This document shows positions 795 through 15,538 of a stretch of DNA of 64,000 bases, piece by piece. This DNA comes from Streptacidiphilus jiangxiensis. Its GTDB lineage: Bacteria > Actinomycetota > Actinomycetes > Streptomycetales > Streptomycetaceae. Under the pieces are notes generated by a model, which did no database searches, was not told where the DNA came from, and was given only the letters and a program-made list of their open reading frames with translations. Position 1 is the first letter of the stretch; every line of letters begins with the position of its first letter. The DNA lies in assembly GCF_900109465.1 (NCBI RefSeq), contig NZ_FOAZ01000012.1, positions 186,001-250,000 on the forward strand. Direction: 5' to 3'. The position numbers and the translations under genes were made by a program.

Positions 795-2023
795 CGCTTC
801 CCCTCCCGCTGACCGCTGTGCTGACTGCCGTGCTGACGCTGCTTCGGCACCCGCAGCTCCACCTCGGTGCCCTGACCGGCGGCGGAGAAGAACTCGGCGC
901 TGCCGCCCAGATCACGCAGGCGGCCGCGGATCGACTGCGACACCCCGAGCCTGCCCTCGCGCTCGGCCTCGGCCAGCCGGGCCGGGTCGAACCCGGGGCC
1001 CTCGTCGCGGACGCTGACGACCACCTGGTCCGGCTCGTCCTCGACCAGGATCCAGGCCTGGGCCTGCTCGCCGACGTGCCGACGGACATTGTCCAACGCG
1101 GCACCGACGGCCGCCGCCAGCTCGCCCGCCGCGGCGTACGGCAACAGCACCTCGGTGCCGGGCTGGGCGAGGCTCACGCGGGAGTCGGAGAGCGGAGCGA
1201 GCAGGGCCCGCAGATCCTGCGGAGTCGTCGGGTCCACGGCGGCCGCGGTGCCCGTGCCACCGGGCGCGGGCCCGTCCGGCGCACTCAGCCCACTCGCGAT
1301 CAGCCGGCGCAGCGCCACCTCCTGCTCCCCGGCCAGCGCGGCGATCTCCGCCGCCTCCCCGCCGAGCTCCGCGCCGCGCCGACTGACCAGGCTCAGCACC
1401 TGGAGCACGCCGTCGTGGATGTCCCTGGCCAGCCGTTCGCGCTCGCGCGTCGCGGCCTGGATCTCCAGGGCGCGGGCCAGCGTCTCCTCACTCTTGCGGG
1501 CCAGGTCTATGACGAAGCCGATGGCCACACCCGCGAGCAGCAGCAGCACGATGTTGTGCAGGTTCGAGGAGTCGAGCTTGCCCGCCTCGATCACGTTCGC
1601 GACGCCGACCACGACCCCGGCGAAGGCCGCCGGCAGCCAGCCGCCGTAGACGGCGAAGCCGAGCACCGCGCTGGCCGCCCGGATCGTGGGCAGGGTGACG
1701 TCCCCGCCGGCGACCCAGTGCGGCGCGTCGAAGGCGCGGGTCAGCAGGATGCCGAGGACGATCAGCGCGAGGTCGACGACCAGCCAGCGGCGGGTGCAGG
1801 TCTCCTTGGACCAGAACACCCTGACCGTGCCGAGGGTCCAGGCCGACAGCACGCCCATGTAGATCCATGCGCCGAGCTGGTTGGTGTAGTGCTGCTCGTG
1901 CTCGGCGTAGCGGCCGATCGCGTAGAGCAGCGTCAGCACGCGGAAGGCGCTGATCGCGATCCACAGCGGCTGTTCGACGGAGAACGAGCCGCCGACGGCG
2001 ACACTCCTCGGCTTTCCCCCCAC
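791..2023 (-). CDS. Membrane sensor histidine kinase, HisKA_3 type (MacS-like, DUF5931 N-terminus)
   Basis: A 410-residue sensor kinase. Residues about 20-175 contain five or six hydrophobic helices, as in the DUF5931 sensor family. The dimerisation/phosphoacceptor helix follows with H203 in LARDIHDGVLQVL. The ATPase domain has the N box LDNVRRH and the G1 box DEGPGFD. It is expected to phosphorylate D66 of the coupled regulator. The signal is unknown, and the sensor part has little outside the membrane, so an intramembrane cue is plausible. The stop is 26 bases from the acyltransferase stop-to-start junction, suggesting an acyltransferase-kinase-regulator transcript. Confidence 0.92.
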   Translation of the reverse strand: MGGKPRSVAVGGSFSVEQPLWIAISAFRVLTLLYAIGRYAEHEQHYTNQLGAWIYMGVLSAWTLGTVRVFWSKETCTRRWLVVDLALIVLGILLTRAFDAPHWVAGGDVTLPTIRAASAVLGFAVYGGWLPAAFAGVVVGVANVIEAGKLDSSNLHNIVLLLLAGVAIGFVIDLARKSEETLARALEIQAATRERERLARDIHDGVLQVLSLVSRRGAELGGEAAEIAALAGEQEVALRRLIASGLSAPDGPAPGGTGTAAAVDPTTPQDLRALLAPLSDSRVSLAQPGTEVLLPYAAAGELAAAVGAALDNVRRHVGEQAQAWILVEDEPDQVVVSVRDEGPGFDPARLAEAEREGRLGVSQSIRGRLRDLGGSAEFFSAAGQGTEVELRVPKQRQHGSQHSGQREGKR

Positions 2024-2049
2024 GGTCCCCTCCTGCTGACCTACTGGTC

Positions 2050-2829
2050 CTACTGGTCCTTCTGGTCCTTCTGGTCCTTGTGCTGGGCGGCCTGGGCAGC
2101 CTGTTCGGCCTGCTTCGCCGCCTGCTTCTCCGCCTTCTTGGCGTCCTGCATCGCGCGCTTGGCGGCCGTGGCGTAGACGTCCACGTACTCCTGGCCGGAG
2201 AGGCGCATGATCTCGTACATCACCTCGTCGGTGACCGAACGCAGGATGAAGCGGTCGTTCTCCATGCCCTGGTACCGCGAGAAGTCCATCGGGCGGCCGA
2301 TCCGGATGCCCGGACGGACGCCGAACTTCGGCAGCACCTGGCCGGGAGGCTGGAGCTTCTCGGTGTCGATCATCGCGACCGGGATCACCGGCGCGCCGGT
2401 GGCCAGCGCGATACGGGCCACGCCGCCGACCTTGCCGCGGTAGAGACGCCCGTCGGGCGAGCGGGTGCCCTCGGGGTAGACGCCGAAGAGCTCCCCGCGC
2501 TCGATCACCGCGATGCCGCTCTGGATCGCCGCCTCACCGGCCCCGCGCACCCCCGAGCGGTCGACCGGGAGCTGGCCGACGCCCTTGAAGAAGGCCGCCG
2601 TCAACTTTCCCTTGATCCCCGTCCCGGTGAAGTACTCGGACTTGGCGATGAAGGTGACCCGCCGCCTCGGGATCAGCGCAGGCAGGAAGAACGAGTCGGA
2701 GAAGGAGAGGTGGTTGCTGGCCAGGATGGCCGGCCCCTCCTCGGGGATGTTCTCCATGCCCTCGACCCACGGACGGAAGAAGACCTTCAGCATCGGGGCG
2801 ACGATCATCTTCATCAGCCGGTAGAACAA
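2050..2829 (-). CDS. 1-acyl-sn-glycerol-3-phosphate acyltransferase (PlsC family)
   Basis: This PlsC-type acyltransferase (259 residues) would transfer an acyl group from acyl-CoA or acyl-ACP to lysophosphatidate or a related lipid at the membrane. The catalytic HX4D motif is H40-D45 (NHLSFSD) and the acceptor motif EGTR is at 120-123. The chosen start is TTG at 2829, eight bases after GGAGG; an in-frame ATG at 2841 would add four residues. The last 35 residues are a Lys/Ala/Gln-rich tail ending in three KDQ repeats coded by near-identical 9-bp units. The family occurs in the same neighbourhood in mycobacteria (Rv2182c). It is probably the first gene of the operon with the kinase and regulator. 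Confidence 0.9.
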   Translation of the reverse strand: MFYRLMKMIVAPMLKVFFRPWVEGMENIPEEGPAILASNHLSFSDSFFLPALIPRRRVTFIAKSEYFTGTGIKGKLTAAFFKGVGQLPVDRSGVRGAGEAAIQSGIAVIERGELFGVYPEGTRSPDGRLYRGKVGGVARIALATGAPVIPVAMIDTEKLQPPGQVLPKFGVRPGIRIGRPMDFSRYQGMENDRFILRSVTDEVMYEIMRLSGQEYVDVYATAAKRAMQDAKKAEKQAAKQAEQAAQAAQHKDQKDQKDQ

Positions 2830-5278: not shown

Positions 5279-6217
5279 TCAGAAGCGGGCGAGGTCCGCG
5301 GCGCCGATGATGCCGGCGGCGGAGCCGATGGTGGCGAGGACGACCTCGGCGCGGGGGCGGTGGACGCCGCCCACGATGTACTTCTCGAAGGCCTTGGCGA
5401 CCGGGTCGAGCAGCAGGTGGCCGGAGTCCGAGACGCCGCCGCCGAGGACGAAGACGGCGGGGTCGAAGAGGGAGGCGAGGTCGGCCAGGCCCCGGCCGAG
5501 CCAGTCGGCGAGCTCGTCGTAGACGTCCAGGGCCATCGGGTCGCCCTCCTGGGCGGCCTGGGTGATCTGGCTGCCGGTGATCGTCTCGGCGACGCCCTCG
5601 TTCAGCTCGAGCAGGCGGGCGCCGCGGGCGGGATCGGCCGCGGCGGCCTCGCGACCGTAGCGGCGCAGCGCGCGGCCGGAGCCGTACTGCTCCCAGCAGC
5701 CCTTGGAGCCGCAGCCGCAGAGAAGGCCGTCCGGGACCATGTTCAGGTGGCCGATCTCGCCGGCCACGCCGAAACTTCCACGGTGCATCCGGCCCTCGAT
5801 GACGATGCCGCCCCCGATGCCGGTGCCCACCGTCACCATGATCATGTCCTGGTGGCTGGCCGCGGCCCCGAACCGGAACTCGCCCCAGGCGGCCGCGTTG
5901 GCGTCGTTCTCCACCACCGTCGGCAGGTGGACCAGGTCCTCGATGCGGGTCTTGAGCGGCTCGTTCTCCCAGTCGATGTTCGGCGCCATCAGCACCGTCG
6001 ACCGGTCCCGGTCGATGTAACCGGGGGCGCCGACGCCGACGGCGACGACGTCGTGCTGCTCGCGCAGCTCCTTGATCGCGTCCGCGATGGCCCCGACGGC
6101 CCACTGCGGATCGGCGGGCGTGGGCACGCGGGTGCGCGCCAGGATCGCCCCGTTCTCGTCCACGACCCCAGCCGCGATCTTGGTGCCGCCGACGTCGACG
6201 CCGATGGTGAGTCCCAT
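5279..6217 (-). CDS. glkA: ROK-family glucokinase
   Basis: ATP-dependent phosphorylation of glucose to glucose-6-phosphate in the cytoplasm. At 312 residues it matches streptomycete GlkA (SCO2126). Motifs are the N-terminal phosphate loop GVDVGGTKIAAG, the catalytic END-containing VVENDANAAAWGE, the ROK signature, and the zinc site HLN...CGCGSKGCWEQYGSG. GlkA is also known to be central to glucose repression in Streptomyces. The start at 6217 has GAGGGA four bases upstream. A TAATGT sequence near 6259-6264 on this strand could be its -10 element, though no clear -35 partner was found. It is terminated by the hairpin at 5216-5244. Confidence 0.95.
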   Translation of the reverse strand: MGLTIGVDVGGTKIAAGVVDENGAILARTRVPTPADPQWAVGAIADAIKELREQHDVVAVGVGAPGYIDRDRSTVLMAPNIDWENEPLKTRIEDLVHLPTVVENDANAAAWGEFRFGAAASHQDMIMVTVGTGIGGGIVIEGRMHRGSFGVAGEIGHLNMVPDGLLCGCGSKGCWEQYGSGRALRRYGREAAAADPARGARLLELNEGVAETITGSQITQAAQEGDPMALDVYDELADWLGRGLADLASLFDPAVFVLGGGVSDSGHLLLDPVAKAFEKYIVGGVHRPRAEVVLATIGSAAGIIGAADLARF

Positions 6218-6355: not shown

Positions 6356-6835
6356 CTAGTCCAGGTCGATGTGTTCGGTGCCGTCCTTCTTCGGGGCCGC
6401 CCATCGGCGTTCGGAGGCTGAAACCGCAGCCCGGTACGCCGCGATCAGCTCGCCCCCCGCCGCCAGCAGATGGCCGTACACGGCGGGATTGGAGCTGCGC
6501 AGCGGTGCAGCCAGGTTCTGCAACACCTCCATCGGGTCGCCGGCGCCGGAGCTGAGGGAGGTCACCTTCTCGCTCACCGCCGACGCGAACCGGCGCACCT
6601 CGTCGACGAGCGGGCCCAGTTCCTGGCCGAAGGGAAGCTCCGCGCCGAACGGGGACTCCTTGCCGTCGCCGGCCGCGCCTGCGGTCCCAGTCTCATCGAC
6701 CGCCCCGGGCTCCGCCACCGGGGTGGGCTCCGTGGTGTGCTCCGCCTCGACCGGGGCCGCGGTCCGCTCCTGATCGGCGACCGCCTCCGCCCACACGTCG
6801 CCACCGCGCCCGTCGTTCTCCTCGGCGCTGCTCAT
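6356..6835 (-). CDS. DUF5304-family conserved actinobacterial protein
   Basis: A 159-residue acidic cytoplasmic protein. The first 80 residues are Glu/Ala/Pro-rich and probably disordered. The conserved C-terminal part contains an amphipathic region (LGPLVDEVRRFASAVSEKV) and a helix ending in SERRWAAP. I recognise it as DUF5304, a Streptomyces protein found beside glkA and the ArsA-like ATPase; its function is unknown. ATG 6835, five bases after GGGGAG, is preferred over an in-frame GTG at 6841. It is 35 bases downstream of the ATPase stop and likely part of that operon. Confidence 0.78.
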   Translation of the reverse strand: MSSAEENDGRGGDVWAEAVADQERTAAPVEAEHTTEPTPVAEPGAVDETGTAGAAGDGKESPFGAELPFGQELGPLVDEVRRFASAVSEKVTSLSSGAGDPMEVLQNLAAPLRSSNPAVYGHLLAAGGELIAAYRAAVSASERRWAAPKKDGTEHIDLD

Positions 6836-6870
6836 GTCCACTCCCCTCGTCGGCGTCTACGCCTTCGACG

Positions 6871-8055
6871 CTACCTGAGGGGGGCGGGCCACAGGGACGG
6901 GTCGGGTGCGAATCGCACGGTCAGCTCACCGTCGCGCAGGGCCGCGCCAGCGACGGTGCAGCGTCGCAGCGCGGAGGGAAGGGGGACGGCACGGCGGTGC
7001 CCGGCGACACCGAGGACGAGCTCGTCGCCTCGGCGCAGCAGGTCGAGGTCGCCGCGTTCGGCGCCGGGCAGCGGGATGTGCCAGACCAGCACGCCGTCGG
7101 GCGTGTCGAGGCGGTCCTCCACCCCCCAGGCGGTGGCCTTGCGGGCGGCCCGGACCGGCCCCTCGGGCCAGGTGGCGAGGGCGCCGGGTTCGGTGAGCCC
7201 GGTCAGGTCGCCGCGTTCGGGCTCCCGCCCGAGGTCCGGCACCAGGTGCACCGGCACGTCCCAGCCGTCGAGCGCCTCGGCCCCGGCCGGTGCCGCGTCC
7301 GCGCGGTTGACCAGCACCGACTCCAGCGGCAGCTGCTGCAGGGCCAACGCGGCGCGGATCCGCCGCTGCCCCGCGCGGGCGCGCGGGCCACGCGCGGGCG
7401 GGACCACCAGACGCAGCGTGGTGCCGGGTGCCTCGAGCGCGGCGCGGACCCCGGCCAGCTCACCCGAGGCCCAGGCGCGGGCTTCGAAGAGCCACTGCGA
7501 GGGCATCGGCACCCCGGCCAACCCGGCCAGGACGGGACGCAGCGCGCGGGCGGCCTGCCGCTCGTCCGGCAGCAGCCGGGCCAGGTAGGCGTCGACCTGC
7601 GTCGGGAGCGCGAGGGTGGAGAGCAGTTGGGCGACCGGCGGCGCGTCGACGACGACGAGGTCGTGGCGGTCCGTTCCCGGCAGTGCGCGCAGCAGCTCCA
7701 GCAGGGCCAGTTCGCGCGCGCCGGGAAGCGCGGTGAGCTCGTCGGCGTCCAGCGGCTCGACACCCAGGAAGTCGAACAGCGGCTTGGCCCGCTCCATCAG
7801 CCGCATGCCGGCCGCACGGAAGGAGGTCTCCACGTCCAGCCGCATCGCGAACAGCCCGGGGGCCGATCCGATCCGCGCAGGCTCGGCGCCCAGCCGCTGG
7901 TCGAGCAGCGCGTCCGCGTCACGGAAGGGGTCGTCGGCGGCGACGAGCAGCACCCGTTCCCCCGACTCCGCGGCCAGGGCGGCGGTCGCGGCCGCGAGGG
8001 TGGTGCGACCGGCCCCGCCCGGGCCGCTGACGAGGACGAGCCGGGGCATGGGCAT
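6871..8055 (-). CDS. ArsA/Get3-like ATPase with degenerate P-loop
   Basis: A 394-residue member of the anion-transporting ATPase (ArsA) family. The N-terminal P-loop reads SGPGGAGRTTLA (10-21): the usual signature lysine is P12 and the Walker lysine is R17. A switch-II-like VVVDAPPVAQLLSTL and a C-terminal HSP20-like ArsA domain (about 315-390, DGVLVWHIPLPG) are present. The start codon shares one base with the stop of the SRPBCC gene upstream (TGATG at 8053-8057), showing coupling. The same ATPase-SRPBCC pair occurs in mycobacteria (Rv2184c-Rv2185c). Because both lysines are missing, ATP hydrolysis is doubtful and a nucleotide-binding or scaffold role is possible. Confidence 0.85.
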   Translation of the reverse strand: MPMPRLVLVSGPGGAGRTTLAAATAALAAESGERVLLVAADDPFRDADALLDQRLGAEPARIGSAPGLFAMRLDVETSFRAAGMRLMERAKPLFDFLGVEPLDADELTALPGARELALLELLRALPGTDRHDLVVVDAPPVAQLLSTLALPTQVDAYLARLLPDERQAARALRPVLAGLAGVPMPSQWLFEARAWASGELAGVRAALEAPGTTLRLVVPPARGPRARAGQRRIRAALALQQLPLESVLVNRADAAPAGAEALDGWDVPVHLVPDLGREPERGDLTGLTEPGALATWPEGPVRAARKATAWGVEDRLDTPDGVLVWHIPLPGAERGDLDLLRRGDELVLGVAGHRRAVPLPSALRRCTVAGAALRDGELTVRFAPDPSLWPAPLR

Positions 8056-8495
8056 CAGGCGGCGAGGCCCTCGACGCGCTTCTTCAGTCCGGCCAGCGCG
8101 CGGTCGATGATGACCTTCTCGGCCTTGCGCTTGATCATGCCCAGCATCGGGATCTTGACGTCCACGGCGAGCTGGTAGGTGACCTCGGTCCGCGTGCCGG
8201 CCGGGGTCAGCGTGTAGGAGCCGTCGAGCGACTTGAGCATCTGGCTCTTGACCAGGGTCCAGCTGACCTTGCGGTCGCCGTCCCAGGTGTAGGCGAGGAC
8301 GTGCTCGTCCTTGATCGCGCCGGCGTCCAGCACCAGGCGCACCTCCTCCGCGCGGCCGTCCCCGGTCTCGGCCAGGACCTCGACCTCCTTGACCTCACCG
8401 GTCCACACCGGGTACGCGGAGAAGTCCGCGATCACCGCCATGATCGCGGCAGGGTCGGCCTCGATCGTGGTGCTCGACCTGGTGTGCTCCGCCAT
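8055..8495 (-). CDS. SRPBCC (polyketide cyclase/START-like) family protein
   Basis: A 146-residue single-domain SRPBCC protein. The fold pattern is clear: an N-terminal strand (TRSSTTIEADPAAIMAVIAD), the FSAYPVWTGEVKEVEV segment, central strands and a long C-terminal helix (RALAGLKKRVEGLAA). Such proteins bind hydrophobic ligands in a cavity; no enzyme activity can be deduced. ATG 8495 is preferred because GGAGG lies seven bases upstream; an upstream start at 8522 lacks a good site. It is translationally coupled to the ArsA-like ATPase, so the two products probably act together, for example as a lipid-binding partner and a nucleotide-switch protein. Confidence 0.87.
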   Translation of the reverse strand: MAEHTRSSTTIEADPAAIMAVIADFSAYPVWTGEVKEVEVLAETGDGRAEEVRLVLDAGAIKDEHVLAYTWDGDRKVSWTLVKSQMLKSLDGSYTLTPAGTRTEVTYQLAVDVKIPMLGMIKRKAEKVIIDRALAGLKKRVEGLAA

Positions 8496-8608: not shown

Positions 8609-9376
8609 TCAGATGTCCAGCACCCAGGGCCGTCCGGTCGCGTTGAAGTGGCCGACGTTGACGCACTCGGTACGGCCGATCCGCATCCGCCGGGCCAGCG
8701 GCTGGTGCACGTGACCGAACAGGGCGTACGCGGGCCGGGTCTCCCGGATCGCCGCCAGCACCGCCTCGCTGCCGCGCTCGAAACGGCGGGCCACGGTGTC
8801 GTAGGTGAGCTCGGGGACGGCGGGCGGGATGTGGGTGCACAGCACGTCGACCGGACCGAGCGCGGCGACCTTGGCGGCGTACTCCTCATCGCTCACCTCG
8901 AACGGCGTGCGCATCGGGCTCGGCAGCCCGCCGCCGACGAAGCCGAAGGTGAGGCCGCCGATCTCCACGGTCTGCCCGTCCAGCACGGTCACCCCGGCGC
9001 GGGCGAACTCCGGCCACAGCCGCGGCAGGTCCACGTTGCCGTAGGTGGCGTAGGTCGGCGCGGGGAAGGCGGCGAACAGCTCCGCGTACTGGCGGCGCAC
9101 GGCGCCCTCGATGGCCTCGGCGCGGTCCATGCCGACGCCCGCCCACAGCTCGGCGGAGAAGGCGCGGGCCTCCTCGAAGCGGCGCTCGGTGCGCATCCGC
9201 ACCAGCCGGGTGGCGTTCTCCGCGCCGAACAGATCGGGGAAGATGCCCCGGCTGTGGTCGGCGTAGTCGAGGAAGAGGATCAGATCCCCGAGACAGACCA
9301 GCGCGTCGGCGCCCTCCCCGGCGCGCGCCAGCGCCTCGCTGTTGCCGTGCACGTCGCTGACCACATGGACCCGCAT
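8609..9376 (-). CDS. Metallophosphoesterase (calcineurin-like)
   Basis: A 255-residue calcineurin-type phosphoesterase with the five metal-ligand blocks visible: SDVHGN at the N-terminus, LGDLI, YGNVDLP, CTHIPP and FGHVHQP. It is cytoplasmic. Substrate is unknown; the family includes nucleotide, phosphoprotein and phospholipid phosphatases. The ATG at 9376 starts just before the first metal motif; an in-frame GTG at 9385 would add three residues. The gene is divergent from fadD, whose start is 150 bases away, and downstream of it lies the SRPBCC gene start. Confidence 0.85.
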   Translation of the reverse strand: MRVHVVSDVHGNSEALARAGEGADALVCLGDLILFLDYADHSRGIFPDLFGAENATRLVRMRTERRFEEARAFSAELWAGVGMDRAEAIEGAVRRQYAELFAAFPAPTYATYGNVDLPRLWPEFARAGVTVLDGQTVEIGGLTFGFVGGGLPSPMRTPFEVSDEEYAAKVAALGPVDVLCTHIPPAVPELTYDTVARRFERGSEAVLAAIRETRPAYALFGHVHQPLARRMRIGRTECVNVGHFNATGRPWVLDI

Positions 9377-9525
9377 GGGCCCCACCCTAGGCCCACTACG
9401 CTGGTCAGCGAGTGTGACCCTGGGAACACCTGGCTTCTACATCTATCCCCCTGGTGCTACCCGCTAGTAACGTCCTGGCGTCCCAGCAGCGTCGCCGTGG
9501 CAGCCAGACGATCGAGGAGCAAGCT

Positions 9526-11322
9526 TTGCGCGAGTTCAGCCTTCCGGCCCTGTACGTGGTGCCGAGCGGCGGAAACCTCACCGATCTCATCCACGCCAAC
9601 GCGCAGGCCCACGCCGACCTGCCGCTCGTCGCGCGCAAGGTGGACGGCGCCTGGCAGGACCGCACCGCCGAGCAGTTCCTCGCCGAGGTGCGAGCCGCGG
9701 CCAAGGGCCTGATCGCCTCCGGCGTCGCCGCGGGCGACCGGGTCGGACTGATGGCGCGCACCCGCTACGAGTGGACCCTGCTGGACTTCGCCATCTGGTG
9801 CGCGGGCGCGATCACCGTCCCCGTCTACGAGACCTCCTCGGCCGAGCAGGTCGAGTGGATCCTCGGCAACTCCGGCGCGGTCGCCTGCGTCGCCGAGCTG
9901 CCGCGGCACGAGGCCGTCATCGCCGAGGTGCGCGAGCGGCTGCCGCAGCTGAAGCAGGTCTGGCAGTTGGAGGCCGGCGGCCTGGACGAGCTGGTCGCAG
10001 CCGGCGCGGACGTCGCCGACGAGGCGATCGAGGAGCGCCGGGCCACCCTGGGCCCGGACACGGTCGCGACGATCGTCTACACCTCCGGCACCACCGGCCG
10101 CCCCAAGGGCTGCATGCTGACCCACGCCAACTTCATGGCGGAGCTCGGCAACATCACCCAGCGCCTGGAGCCGCTGTTCCGGCCGGGCCACTCCTCGGTA
10201 CTGCTCTTCCTCCCGCAGGCGCACGTGCTGGGCCGGATCGCGGAGATCGCCGCCGCGATGGCGCCGATCCGGATCGGCCACGTCCCGGACATCAAGGAGG
10301 TCACCGCCGAGCTGGCCTCGTTCCGCCCGACGCTGATCCTCGGCGTGCCGCGCGTCTTCGAGAAGGTCTTCAACTCCGCCCGCGCCAAGGCGCAGGCCGA
10401 GGGCAAGGGCAAGATCTTCGACCGGGCCGCGGACACGGCCATCGCCTACAGCCGCGCACTGGACACCCCCGGCGGCGCCTCGCTCGGCCTGAAGCTGCGC
10501 CACCGGCTGTTCGACGCGCTGGTCTACAGCAAGCTGCGCAACGCGCTGGGCGGCCGGGCCACCCATGCCATCTCCGGCGGCGCACCGCTGGGCGAGCGGC
10601 TGGGCCACTTCTACCGGGGCATCGGCTTCACGGTGCTGGAGGGCTACGGGCTGACGGAGACCTGCGCGGCCACCGCCTTCAACCCGCACGACAAGCCGAA
10701 GATCGGCACGGTCGGCCAGCCGCTGCCGGGCTCCGCGGCCCGGATCGGCGACGACGGCGAGATCCTGCTCAAGGGCCCGCAGGTCTTCACCGGCTACTGG
10801 GAGAACCCGGAGGCCACCGCCGAGGCGCTGCACGACGGCTGGTTCGCCACCGGCGACATCGGCGAGCTGGACGAGGACGGCTACCTGCGGATCACCGGGC
10901 GCAAGAAGGAGATCATCGTCACCGCCGGCGGCAAGAACGTCGCCCCGGCCGTGATCGAGGACCGGATCCGGGCGCACCCGCTGATCGGCGAGTGCATGGT
11001 GGTCGGCGACCGCCGCCCGTTCGTGGCCGCGCTGATCACCGTGGACGAGGAGTTCTTCCCCGCGTGGAAGAAGCTCCACGGCAAGCCGGAGGGCGCCACC
11101 GTCTCCGACCTGATGGCCGACGCCGACCTGCTGGCGGCCGTGCAGTCCGCGGTGGACGACGGCAACGCGGCGGTCTCGCACGCCGAGGCGGTCAAGAAGT
11201 TCCGCGTCATCGACACGGTGCTGTCGGAGGACTCCGGCCACCTGACGCCGTCGCTGAAGCTCAAGCGCGGCGTGGTGATGAAGGACTTCGCCGACGAGGT
11301 CGAGGCGCTCTACCAGAAGTAG
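9526..11322 (+). CDS. fadD: Long-chain fatty-acid--CoA ligase (AMP-forming)
   Basis: Activates long-chain fatty acids to acyl-CoA through an acyl-adenylate. The 598-residue protein starts at TTG 9526, six bases after GAGGAG, and begins LREFSLPALYVVPSGGNLTD, the usual start of streptomycete FadD. Motifs: the AMP-binding loop YTSGTTGRPKG from residue 185, GYGLTET, and the ATP-site TGDIGELDEDGYLRITGRKKE near 450. The neighbourhood resembles mycobacterial fadD15 (Rv2187), which also lies next to pimB. It probably feeds acyl groups to membrane lipids or to degradation. Transcription ends at the hairpin at 11337-11367. Confidence 0.94.
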   Translation: MREFSLPALYVVPSGGNLTDLIHANAQAHADLPLVARKVDGAWQDRTAEQFLAEVRAAAKGLIASGVAAGDRVGLMARTRYEWTLLDFAIWCAGAITVPVYETSSAEQVEWILGNSGAVACVAELPRHEAVIAEVRERLPQLKQVWQLEAGGLDELVAAGADVADEAIEERRATLGPDTVATIVYTSGTTGRPKGCMLTHANFMAELGNITQRLEPLFRPGHSSVLLFLPQAHVLGRIAEIAAAMAPIRIGHVPDIKEVTAELASFRPTLILGVPRVFEKVFNSARAKAQAEGKGKIFDRAADTAIAYSRALDTPGGASLGLKLRHRLFDALVYSKLRNALGGRATHAISGGAPLGERLGHFYRGIGFTVLEGYGLTETCAATAFNPHDKPKIGTVGQPLPGSAARIGDDGEILLKGPQVFTGYWENPEATAEALHDGWFATGDIGELDEDGYLRITGRKKEIIVTAGGKNVAPAVIEDRIRAHPLIGECMVVGDRRPFVAALITVDEEFFPAWKKLHGKPEGATVSDLMADADLLAAVQSAVDDGNAAVSHAEAVKKFRVIDTVLSEDSGHLTPSLKLKRGVVMKDFADEVEALYQK

Positions 11323-11479: not shown

Positions 11480-14400
11480 ATGTCCGTACGTTCCGCGCTG
11501 CCCAAAATAGTGGCTGCCTTCTCATTGGCCGCAGGTCTGCTCTCCGGCGCCGCCGTGACCGCACACGCCGACGAGACCACCGTGTCCCAGGACACCTACC
11601 GCACCGGATGGGACCAGAACGAGCCGGGCCTGACGCCCGCGCAGGTCTCCTCCTCCGACTTCGGCCAGCAGTTCTCCACCGCCGTCGACGGGCAGGTCTA
11701 CGCGCAGCCCGTGGTCGTCGGCAACACACTGGTCGTCGCGACCGAGACCAACCACGTCTACGGTCTCGACCCGGTCAGCGGCGCGATCAGGTGGACCGAC
11801 GCCTACGGCGCGCCGTGGCCCGCCTCCGGGGTGACCACCCCGGGCGCCACCTGGTCCTGCGGTGACCTCGCCCCGTACATCGGCATCACCGGCACCCCCG
11901 TCTACGACCCGGCCTCCGGCTACGTCTACCTGGTCTCCAAGGAGGACGGCGGCCAGTACCACGACGCACCGGTCTACAAGATGCACGCCGTGGACCCGGC
12001 CACCGGCAACGAGAAGCCCGGCTTCCCGGTCGTCATCTCCGGCTCCCCGAGCAACGACCCCTCCACCGTCTTCACCCCCGTCCAGGAAGGCCAGCGGCCC
12101 GGCCTGCTGCTGCTGAACGGCGTGGTCTACGCCGGCTTCGGCTCGGTCTGCGACCACGGCAACTGGCGCGGTTTCGTCGTCGGCGTCAACACCTCCGGCC
12201 AGCAGACCGCGATGTGGGCCGACGAGACCGGTGCCGCCAACCAGGGCGGCGGCATCTGGGCCTCCGGCGGCGGTCTGGTCGCGGACGCGCAGGGCCACAT
12301 CGAGTTCTCCACCGGCAACGGCGTCTCGCCGCCCGTCGGCCCGGGCTCCAGCCCGCCGGCCACCATGTCCGAGTCGGTGATCTCGCTGACCGTGCAGAGC
12401 AACGGCTCGCTGAAGGCGAACGACTTCTTCGCCCCCTCCAACGCGGCCTATCTGGACCAGAACGACCGCGACCTCGGCTCCGGGGGCGTCATGGCCGTCC
12501 CGGACGGCTACGGCACCACCGCGATCCCGCACCTCGCCGTCACCGAGGGCAAGGACGGCCGGATCTTCCTGCTCAACCGCGACAACCTCGGCGGCATGGC
12601 GCAGGGCAGCGGCGGCGGGGACGCGAACGTGCAGACGCTCGGCCCCTACACCGGCTGCTACTGCCACCCGGCGTTCTGGGGCGGGGGCGGCGGCTACGTC
12701 TACTACTCCAGCAACGGCGGCCCGCTGCAGGCGTTCCACCTCGGCGTCGACGGCAGCGGCAACCCGGCGCTCGCCCTGGTCGGCCAGGGGTCGATCAACT
12801 TCGGCTACCTCAACGAGGGTTCACCCGTCGTCACCTCCACCGGCACCACCGCCGGCAGCTCGGTGGTGTGGGTCTCCAAGGCCAACGACATGTACGGCAA
12901 CGGCGCCACCCTGTACGCCTACAACGGCACCCCGAACGCGGACGGCTCGCTCAGCATGCTGTGGTCCGCGCCCTACGGCGTCGCTTCCAAGTTCGCCACG
13001 CCCGCCACCAGCGGCGGCCGCGTCTACATCGGCTCCCGCGACGGCCACGTGCTGGCCTTCGGCCGCCCGGCCACCTCGGTGCTGACCGGCCAGCCCGTCT
13101 CCATCGGCCAGGTCAACGTCGGCGCGAACGGCAGCGGGACGCTCACCGTCACCGCCTCGCGCGCGCTGAACGTCACCGGCGTCACCACCTCGGCGCCGTT
13201 CGCGGTGACCGCGCCGACGCTGCCCGACGCGCTCGCGACCGGCGGCACGCTCACCGTCCCGGTCACCTTCACCCCGACCGTGGCGGGAGCCACCACCGGC
13301 ATCGTCAACATCGCCACCGACCAGGGCACGGTGGGCTTCTCGGTCAGCGCCACCGGCGTCAAGGCGGGCTTCGCCACCGCCCCGGCCACCGTGAGCTTCA
13401 CCGGCCAGCCGACCGGCGTGCCGATCTCGACGTCCGTCCAGTTCACCAACACCGGCACCGGCAGCGAGACCGTCTCCGCGACGGGAGCGCCGTCCGCGCC
13501 GTGGAGCGTGACGGGCGCACCGGCCGCCGGCACCGTGGTCCCGGCAGGCGGCTCGTTCACCGAGTCCGTCACCTACGACCCGACGACGGCCGGCAGCTCC
13601 ACCGACCAGCTCTCGGTCACCTCCACCTCGGGCACCTTCACGGTGCCGCTCAGCGGCACCTCGGTGACCGGGCAGGGGCATCTGACGATCACCCCGGCCT
13701 CGCTCAGCTTCGGCTCCGTGCCCGTCGGTACGACCTCGCCGCAGCTGAGCTTCACCGTCACCAACGACGGCAACATCCCGGTCACCCTCAACAAGGCCAA
13801 GGCGCCGGTCGGCACCTTCTCCAGCCCGAACGCCATCGCCGAGGGCCAGGTGCTCGGCCCCGACCAGTCGGTCCAGGTGCCCGTGGTCTTCTCGCCGACC
13901 ACCGCGGGCGCGCTCAGCGACAGCTACGAGATCACCGGCAACACCGGCCAGGGCGACCTGTACGTCCAGCTGTCCGGCACCGGACTCGCCACCCTGCCGC
14001 AGCCGCCGACGAGTTGGCAGGCCAACGGCTCCGCGACGCTCTCCGCGGGCGCGATCACGCTCACCCCGGCCACCACCCAGCAGTCCGGCTCCGCGTTCTA
14101 CACCGGCGCCGTCCGGACCGACGGCCTGACCGCCTCGTTCACCTCGACCTTCAGCGGCGGCACCGGCGGTGACGGCGCCACCTACGCGCTGGTGGACGCC
14201 ACCAAGGGCACCGACACCGGCACCGGCGTCGCCGGCGGCGGCATGGGCTTCTCCAAGCTGCCGGGCCTGGCCGTGGTGCTCTCCAGCAGCTGGAACGGCA
14301 CCGCCGGGATGGGCAACTTCGTCGGCATCGCCCAGGGCCCCGGCTCGGGCGCCGACAACCTCACCTACCTGGCCTGGGCCAAGGTCCCCACCTCGCTGGA

Positions 14401-15538
14401 GACCGGGAGCCACGCGGTGACCGTCACCACGGCCGGCGGGCACGTCAAGGTCGGCGTCGACGGCACCGCGCTGCTCGACTACGTCCCGGCCGCCGGGGTA
14501 CTGCCCAGCAACGCCTACGTCGGGTTCACCGCCGGCACCGGCGCCAGCACCGACGTGCACGCCATCTCGAACATCACCATCACCCCGCCGGCCGCGGCCA
14601 CCACCGGACCGCAGATCCTGACGGCCACGCCGAGCGCGGTCGCGTTCGGCGCGGCGACCGTCGGCAGCACCGGCAGCCAGTCGGTGACGCTGATGAACAA
14701 CGGCACCGGCACCGAGACCGTCACCGCCGTCACGGCACCGGCCGCACCCTTCGGCGCGACCCTGCCGGCGGTCGGCACGGCCGTCGCCCCGGGCTCGTCC
14801 GTCACCGTCCCGGTCACCTTCGCGCCGACCCTGACGGGCGCCCAGAACAGCTCCTTCGCGGTCACCACCACCAGCGGCACCGTCACCGTCTCGCTCGCGG
14901 GCACCGGCCAGCCGGGCGGGACCGGCGGCACGCTGCCCGGCTTCACCGACGCGAGCTGGCACCTGAACGGCGTGGCGAGCCAGTCCGGCGGCGTCGTGGC
15001 GCTGACCACGGACGGGATGCACTCGTCCAAGGGCGACGTCGTCAACGCCACCGCGGTCAACCCGATCGGCCTGCACGCCAGGTTCACCGAGTCGATCAGC
15101 TCCACCGGCACCCAGACCGGCGACGGCATGACCTTCGCCCTGCTGAACGCCGCCACGATGAGCACCTCGTCCCTCGGCCACGACGGCAGCGGACTGGGCG
15201 CCACCGGTCTCGACGCGACGGTGGCCGGATTGGCGGTGTTCTCGAACTTCGGCGCGGGAAGCTCACCGGATCTGGGAGTGGCCACGACAAGTTCCGGCAC
15301 CACCGGTTTCAGCACCCTCGGCTACACCACGAATATCCCGGCGTTGCAGGGGGCGACCCACACGATCGATATCCAGGTGACGGCCGCGAGCCATCTCGTG
15401 GTCTCGGTCGACGGCGTCCAGGAGCTCGACGAGGCGGTGACGCTGCCCAACAAGGTGCTGGTCGGCTTCACGGCCGGGGTCGGCGCCTCCACGGACACCT
15501 TCGCCGTCTCCGCGCCGACGATCACCTACAGCTCCTGA
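11480..15538 (+). CDS. Giant secreted beta-propeller / Ig-like / lectin-like protein
   Basis: A 1352-residue exported protein. A Sec signal peptide covers 1-30 (cleavage predicted after AHA). Residues about 33-530 resemble a PQQ/WD-type propeller with repeats such as NHVYGLDPVSGAIRWTD. Three Ig-like 'choice-of-anchor D' modules follow (about 532-628, 629-730, 731-835), then an L-type-lectin-like jelly roll (840-1037), a fourth Ig-like module (1043-1145) and a second lectin-like domain (1153-1352). There is no membrane anchor or sortase signal, so it is secreted or held by sugar binding. The ATG has only a distant GAGGGGGG site. It precedes a GT2 and two GT-C genes, suggesting a role as a glycan-binding or glycosylated surface protein. 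The true function is unknown. Confidence 0.87.
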   Translation: MSVRSALPKIVAAFSLAAGLLSGAAVTAHADETTVSQDTYRTGWDQNEPGLTPAQVSSSDFGQQFSTAVDGQVYAQPVVVGNTLVVATETNHVYGLDPVSGAIRWTDAYGAPWPASGVTTPGATWSCGDLAPYIGITGTPVYDPASGYVYLVSKEDGGQYHDAPVYKMHAVDPATGNEKPGFPVVISGSPSNDPSTVFTPVQEGQRPGLLLLNGVVYAGFGSVCDHGNWRGFVVGVNTSGQQTAMWADETGAANQGGGIWASGGGLVADAQGHIEFSTGNGVSPPVGPGSSPPATMSESVISLTVQSNGSLKANDFFAPSNAAYLDQNDRDLGSGGVMAVPDGYGTTAIPHLAVTEGKDGRIFLLNRDNLGGMAQGSGGGDANVQTLGPYTGCYCHPAFWGGGGGYVYYSSNGGPLQAFHLGVDGSGNPALALVGQGSINFGYLNEGSPVVTSTGTTAGSSVVWVSKANDMYGNGATLYAYNGTPNADGSLSMLWSAPYGVASKFATPATSGGRVYIGSRDGHVLAFGRPATSVLTGQPVSIGQVNVGANGSGTLTVTASRALNVTGVTTSAPFAVTAPTLPDALATGGTLTVPVTFTPTVAGATTGIVNIATDQGTVGFSVSATGVKAGFATAPATVSFTGQPTGVPISTSVQFTNTGTGSETVSATGAPSAPWSVTGAPAAGTVVPAGGSFTESVTYDPTTAGSSTDQLSVTSTSGTFTVPLSGTSVTGQGHLTITPASLSFGSVPVGTTSPQLSFTVTNDGNIPVTLNKAKAPVGTFSSPNAIAEGQVLGPDQSVQVPVVFSPTTAGALSDSYEITGNTGQGDLYVQLSGTGLATLPQPPTSWQANGSATLSAGAITLTPATTQQSGSAFYTGAVRTDGLTASFTSTFSGGTGGDGATYALVDATKGTDTGTGVAGGGMGFSKLPGLAVVLSSSWNGTAGMGNFVGIAQGPGSGADNLTYLAWAKVPTSLETGSHAVTVTTAGGHVKVGVDGTALLDYVPAAGVLPSNAYVGFTAGTGASTDVHAISNITITPPAAATTGPQILTATPSAVAFGAATVGSTGSQSVTLMNNGTGTETVTAVTAPAAPFGATLPAVGTAVAPGSSVTVPVTFAPTLTGAQNSSFAVTTTSGTVTVSLAGTGQPGGTGGTLPGFTDASWHLNGVASQSGGVVALTTDGMHSSKGDVVNATAVNPIGLHARFTESISSTGTQTGDGMTFALLNAATMSTSSLGHDGSGLGATGLDATVAGLAVFSNFGAGSSPDLGVATTSSGTTGFSTLGYTTNIPALQGATHTIDIQVTAASHLVVSVDGVQELDEAVTLPNKVLVGFTAGVGASTDTFAVSAPTITYSS

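Follow-up and report, generated by a model that had tools for sequence, protein, structure and literature searches.

The window, a 64,000-nucleotide stretch of the Streptacidiphilus jiangxiensis genome, encodes an ArsA-like protein with a nucleotide-binding loop that reads GPGGAGRTT. The question raised by this locus is whether such a protein can still split ATP and, if not, what it may do together with the SRPBCC (START-like) protein encoded directly upstream. The locus comprises the following features:

6871..8055 (-): ArsA/Get3d-like protein, 394 aa, P-loop lysines absent (ORF; Pfam ArsA_ATPase and ArsA_HSP20; AlphaFold model)
7999..8025 (-): degenerate P-loop GPGGAGRTT, residues 11–19 (ORF translation; profile alignment)
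7501..7563 (-): client-domain helix region, residues 165–185, ERQAARALRPVLAGLAGVPMP (conservation profile; pLDDT 60–67)
6910..7095 (-): alpha-crystallin/HSP20-like tail, residues 321–382 (Pfam)
8055..8495 (-): SRPBCC (START-like) partner, 146 aa counted from the conserved Met (Pfam Polyketide_cyc2; model)
6356..6841 (-): DUF5304 neighbour, found in 71 of 77 Streptomycetaceae loci
5279..6217 (-): ROK glucokinase, syntenic, found in 77 of 77 Streptomycetaceae loci
8609..9385 (-): calcineurin-like phosphoesterase, syntenic, found in 67 of 77 Streptomycetaceae loci
9454..11322 (+): AMP-binding enzyme (long-chain acyl-CoA ligase type), divergent, syntenic, found in 77 of 77 Streptomycetaceae loci

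Pfam assigns the 394-aa ORF to ArsA_ATPase (84.9 bits; cut-off, 24.3) and its residues 321–382 to ArsA_HSP20 (67.8 bits; cut-off, 22.5). The HSP20-like tail is therefore retained, as had been proposed from the sequence, and supplies the C-terminal crystallin domain that Get3d also has. The SRPBCC ORF matches Polyketide_cyc2 (63.8 bits; cut-off, 27.4) and, based on comparison with homologues, starts at Met10 of the listed ORF (base 8495). Its stop codon overlaps the first possible ATG of the ArsA-like gene by one base (TGATG, 8057–8053), but a second ATG (8049) is equally compatible with the start in homologues, so the overlap reported previously holds only if the first ATG is used and may instead be a short gap.

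The P-loop and its orthologues

The translated ORF reads G11-P12-G13-G14-A15-G16-R17-T18-T19 through the loop, confirming that both lysines are missing; set against the canonical motif GKGGxGK[ST], P12 occupies the position of the intradimeric (trans-acting) lysine and R17 that of the Walker A lysine. Orthologues were fetched from genomes sampled by order, class, and phylum, with the motif scored via profile alignment, and after dropping rows with less than half of the tail or less than 85% coverage the tally held 157 copies from 155 genomes and 53 family codes. These copies were chosen for diversity or as best matches, so the counts below are not frequencies. A further 80 loci from a contig scan were omitted from the tally because the peptide patterns of the scan were partly derived from the eroded loop, though they do enter the analyses of loop deletion (118 loci), core and tail identity, and column conservation.

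Both lysines are present in 84 of the 157 copies, neither in 64, only the first in eight, and only the Walker lysine in one. All 59 copies from the window's own family lack both, excluding a lone mutation or a sequencing error, and 48 of the 53 sampled actinobacterial families keep both lysines in every copy. The original prediction was to fall if orthologues kept the canonical loop and this copy were a lone mutant; the former is indeed seen elsewhere in the Actinomycetota, while the latter is contradicted by the whole family. All eight rows of genus code f5/g8, probably mycobacterial judging from the acyl-CoA ligase neighbour, are intact and read GKGGVGKST in the profile alignment.

The erosion extends beyond the lysines. 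Nearly all of the intact copies carry a DPAHSL-type switch I and a DCAPTAETLR-type switch II, both of which are lost as well in the eroded copies. Within the window's family the intradimeric position is occupied by P, A, Q, L, or S, while the loop Gly and Thr are kept, the Walker position is Arg in 57 of 59 copies, the switch II Asp is present in all 59, and 45 have Asp at the position corresponding to the Get3 catalytic Asp. A site with no remaining use would not require this much conservation, which counts against the explanation favoured below, as does the retention of the intradimeric lysine in the eroded f92 copies and in two f3 rows.

Repeated erosion at a single orthologous locus

A tree of 74 actinobacterial rows (44 intact, 29 eroded, and one unscored), from which the P-loop and switch columns had been excluded, requires at least five changes between the intact and eroded states, all five forced by well-supported branches and constant in 200 bootstrap trees; an earlier tree without the eroded f105 member required four. 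As most other Actinomycetota families are intact, loss is the likely direction. The eroded rows fall into a Streptomycetales-type group of f1 and f3 with f117 (17 rows), f92 (six rows), f5/g18 with f5/g347 (four rows), f5/g17 (one row), and f105/g310 (one row), with the exact placement of the long branches (f117, f5/g347, and f105) being unsure. The frame of the unscored f101 row gives GSGGAGTST, which makes it a likely sixth case of erosion. The aligned sequences show that the catalytic lysines have eroded along with switch I and switch II in the Streptomycetaceae and related groups, as well as in four or more separate lineages.

In places the erosion has gone further. Eleven of 118 Streptomycetaceae loci (five Kitasatospora and six Streptomyces by record title) have a deletion that removes the P-loop, and the switch II Asp is lost in 11 of the 118. 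In one f105 genome the frame at 1921–2758 (+) of the locus, downstream of a typical SRPBCC gene, encodes 279 aa whose match to the family profile is confined to the vicinity of the crystallin tail; it appears to be a C-terminal remnant without the nucleotide domain. The SRPBCC gene was detected in 15 of 29 genomes tested, and at 13 of these 15 loci no ArsA-like partner was detected within the fetched flank (~1.5 kb or less), the other two being the remnant and the positive control; it follows that the SRPBCC gene outlives the ATPase-like gene. In six genomes the sole match was a Get3-like protein with no tail, and an SRPBCC of this type was absent from all six.

The eroded and intact copies belong to the same locus. 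Among loci spanning 7 kb or more, the acyl-CoA ligase (on the opposite strand) and the ROK glucokinase bracket the pair in every one of the 77 from Streptomycetaceae, and the same neighbours recur in intact families and in other eroded ones, though not every neighbour is present in every locus. This shared synteny marks the eroded copy as the same orthologous gene rather than a drifted paralogue. Drift after duplication is further excluded by the Get3-like paralogues that lie elsewhere: the same genome has two, one reading GSGGVGKTT, with the Walker lysine, and the other GKGGTGKTT, with both lysines, and those in other eroded genomes also keep the Walker lysine. Since one paralogue within this genome lacks the first lysine (GSGGVGKTT), loss of that lysine alone is no proof of inactivity. 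The paralogues of this and other genomes occur in pairs in which one member (GSGGVGKTT or GAGGVGKTT) lacks the intradimeric lysine only and the adjacent one has both lysines, possibly forming an asymmetric dimer.

All 73 eroded copies have the SRPBCC gene directly upstream in the same orientation, as do 69 of the 84 intact ones, and the 15 intact exceptions consist of 14 from distant families and one with short flanks. The loci examined contained no fused form of the two genes. Two genomes of the distant actinobacterial family code f28 have tandem intact crystallin-tailed ATPases with no SRPBCC neighbour.

Constraint on the core, client helix, tail, and partner

Coverage of at least 88% was required for the motif alignment, the earlier tree, and the comparisons of core and tail identity and of clades, and these comparisons also left out rows without an adjacent SRPBCC. 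Where the SRPBCC proteins were 60–65% identical, core identity was 0.56 in 64 intact pairs vs 0.36 in 234 eroded pairs, and tail identity was 0.51 vs 0.48; at 70–75% SRPBCC identity, the core was 0.69 in 20 intact pairs vs 0.51 in 141 eroded pairs, and the tail 0.71 vs 0.68. As pairwise identities are not mutually independent, clade means were also computed. The difference of core minus tail ranged from -0.09 to +0.16 in 11 intact clades and was -0.13, -0.10, and -0.08 in three eroded clades, with an exception in the eroded clade f3 (two rows; +0.07). The intact clade f5/g9 (-0.09) falls inside the eroded range and the mixed clade f5/g17 stands at -0.25. Judged from these identities, loss of the lysines goes with faster divergence of the ATPase core, and the alpha-crystallin tail keeps pace with the SRPBCC protein.

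One part of the core runs counter to this pattern. Over profile columns 150–179, conservation reaches 0.90, 0.96, and 0.88 in 126 Streptomycetaceae rows vs 0.55, 0.52, and 0.44 among 43 intact rows from the class, while the switch II block is reversed (0.67 in the Streptomycetaceae vs 0.89 in the intact rows of the class); because the Streptomycetaceae set is less diverse, it is this reversal and not the level of conservation that is informative. The helix of the client domain is the best conserved part of the core in the Streptomycetaceae. It corresponds to about residues 161–190 of the model, where the low confidence (pLDDT 60–67) might reflect a mobile client-binding segment.

Measured against Streptacidiphilus at three compared loci, dN/dS was 0.25–0.32 in the core, 0.05–0.17 in the client helix, and 0.12–0.13 in the tail, with dS being rough in such GC-rich genes. 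These values point to purifying selection, so the ArsA-like gene is no pseudogene, and collectively the alignments indicate that the partner, the tail, and part of the client domain have remained under selection in the eroded lineages. Near the C-terminus of the SRPBCC protein, the stretch VDVKIPMLGMIKRKAEKVIIDRALAGLKKRVE is near-invariant in 140 rows from eroded clades (mostly Streptomycetaceae) and the region is much looser in 69 intact rows, which are themselves more diverse; an SRPBCC interface was perhaps tightened upon loss of the lysines.

Likeness to Get3d and competing explanations

The AlphaFold models have a mean pLDDT of 86.8 (ArsA-like) and 85.4 (SRPBCC). The best fold match of the ArsA-like model is NosGet3d (8egk; Z, 31.9; 349 residues aligned; rmsd, 3.3), including the tail, followed by 3igf (Z, 31.5), 8elf (Z, 27.7), and the archaeal TRC40 (Z, 23.0). 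The placement originally given, in the ArsA/Get3/MinD class, therefore needs narrowing to a Get3d-like parent family bearing an alpha-crystallin tail, rather than simply ArsA/MinD. With Get3d (At1g26090 and Nostoc All4481; 8elf, 8egk, and 3igf) the protein shares the SIMIBI core, the alpha-crystallin tail, the whole-length fold, the absence of a CXXC pair (the window protein has a single cysteine), and, in NosGet3d, an Arg at the Walker lysine position (R17). Get3d, however, keeps the intradimeric lysine and hydrolyses ATP, whereas the window protein has P12, so the latter is not filed as a Get3d ATPase, though homologous to Get3d. Further, Get3d is tied to photosynthetic organisms in PMC10248533, while the present family is actinobacterial and mostly accompanied by an SRPBCC partner. 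That source describes a Get3d that is closed even without nucleotide, that binds tail-anchored proteins with or without the crystallin tail, and that has a closed hydrophobic chamber with a copurifying lipid modelled inside, and by analogy the window protein may resemble Get3d in client binding.

Other relatives are more distant. BagA and BagB (Rv3679/Rv3680; 6bs3) are also actinobacterial Get3-like ATPases, but differ in keeping the Walker lysine, in having no crystallin tail, and in their genomic location; the window protein scores 57.1 against the NCBIfam BagB model (cut-off, 521) and 38 against BagA (cut-off, 400), and the two Get3-like paralogues at one other locus of the genome are, we infer, the Bag proteins. 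An ArsA arsenite pump was excluded, as the protein is a single half of 394 aa with one cysteine and scores 41.5 bits against TIGR04291 (cut-off, 650). Cluster 10 of Castillo and Saier 2010, described as an orthologous set of Actinobacteria-only ArsA homologues of 400–436 aa (PMC2963123), is probably the intact form of this family based on size and taxa; the relevant passages of that paper mention neither the P-loop state, an SRPBCC partner, nor Streptomyces. The SRPBCC model has the helix-grip fold of the START superfamily, with the START protein MSMEG_0129 as best match (5z8o; TMq, 0.84) and closest solved structure by both sequence and fold, a likeness that at 24% identity in the fold alignment is one of fold and sequence and not of established orthology. 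The 'lipid pocket' ascribed to the partner likewise derives from its fold, and lipid binding is putative. The literature searched, which included few subscription papers, held no account of P-loop loss in this family, of an SRPBCC–ArsA/Get3 pair, or of SCO2128.

Given that the ATP-splitting residues have been lost family-wide while the partner gene and the other domains are conserved, the protein probably works without burning ATP, and with moderate confidence we consider it to have a Get3d-like fold that has given up hydrolysis and to bind a client or lipid, independently of ATP, as the partner of the SRPBCC protein. That hydrolysis is lost, that the two proteins touch, and what they bind are all inferred. 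The pseudo-ATPase/SRPBCC module proposed earlier thus gains from the repeated loss of the catalytic site, the purifying selection on the remainder, and the constant upstream gene in eroded copies; its premise that the lysines are normally needed for hydrolysis has to be qualified, as replacement of the Walker lysine by Arg is not enough on its own to abolish activity, NosGet3d with such an Arg and the intradimeric lysine being described as hydrolysing ATP slowly (kcat 0.28 per min; PMC10248533). The same precedent, together with the near-invariant loop Gly/Arg/Thr and switch II Asp in the 59 family copies, would allow a slow but working NTPase in which Arg17 substitutes for the Walker lysine and the trans lysine is replaced by another residue or unneeded. 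We regard this as improbable, because the trans lysine conserved in Get3d has given way to P/A/Q/L/S, the DPAHSL and DCAPTAETLR motifs are gone, sister Kitasatospora-type copies have no loop yet keep the rest, and the ATPase core has been released from constraint.

For copies with R17 the favoured explanation has a sub-case, in which the protein would bind nucleotide without hydrolysing it and stay locked closed on the SRPBCC protein and a client for as long as ATP or another anion remained in place. This accords with a loop in which the glycines, Arg (57 of 59), and Thr are near-invariant and only the first lysine position varies freely, and with the nucleotide-free closed state of Get3d (PMC10248533), which makes binding without turnover a real alternative for such copies, though a somewhat unlikely one; the deleted loop precludes it, via this loop, in the Kitasatospora-type copies. 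Least probable of all is a decaying gene heading for loss, with an eroded motif of no positive meaning. Although the gene is not detected beside a retained SRPBCC in 13 of 15 loci of other lineages, survives in one lineage as a C-terminal remnant, and evolves faster in its core after lysine loss, the dN/dS ratios in the core and client helix, the full length of the 59 counted copies (which had already passed the coverage filter), and the newly sharpened conservation of the client helix all argue otherwise.

Under the favoured non-hydrolysing explanation, the ancestor would have been an ATPase paired with an SRPBCC/START-like protein across much of the Actinomycetota, and the window protein would have lost ATP hydrolysis and persisted as a closed, Get3d-like dimer. 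The helical chamber and tail might hold a hydrophobic client, either a membrane-protein helix or an acyl lipid, to be exchanged to or from the SRPBCC protein; as an acyl-CoA ligase adjoins the pair, an acyl lipid is a reasonable candidate. Most of the Streptomyces copies, keeping the loop Gly, Arg, and Thr, may still hold a nucleotide or anion as a structural ligand that stays in place, while Kitasatospora-type copies, with the loop deleted, would bind no nucleotide through it. The pair would then be built around the SRPBCC protein, with the Get3d-like protein as its dispensable member. A bolder reading, offered tentatively and held almost as likely to be right as wrong, is that a Get3d-type ATP-driven chaperone working with a START-like protein has become an ATP-independent carrier through at least five convergent losses of the same lysines, that in the Streptomycetaceae the weight of selection has moved from the nucleotide site to the client helix and crystallin tail, and that an ATP-powered cycle has been replaced by passive client or lipid hand-over.

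At a single orthologous locus, the copies form a natural series that runs from an intact site through the loss of one lysine, of both, of the loop, and of the nucleotide domain to absence of the gene, with the partner SRPBCC gene retained throughout, and comparison along it can ask which Get3-type functions need ATP hydrolysis and which only the client chamber. The locus also connects Get3d-like proteins, hitherto discussed with photosynthesis, to a START-like partner that streptomycetes and other actinobacteria encode next to an acyl-CoA ligase.

Among the other features of the window and its genome, the DUF5304 protein (6356–6841, -) that sits between the ArsA-like gene and the glucokinase resembles the S. 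coelicolor neighbour of glkA that we take to be SCO2127. The title of a reference in PMC11043171 states that deletion of SCO2127 led to a regulator of actinorhodin production. A 1352-aa ORF at 11480–15538 (+) contains several similar internal stretches. A second, weak ArsA_HSP20 match occurs elsewhere in the genome, in a 158-aa frame (contig C67, 10090–10326) that is probably a small heat-shock protein.
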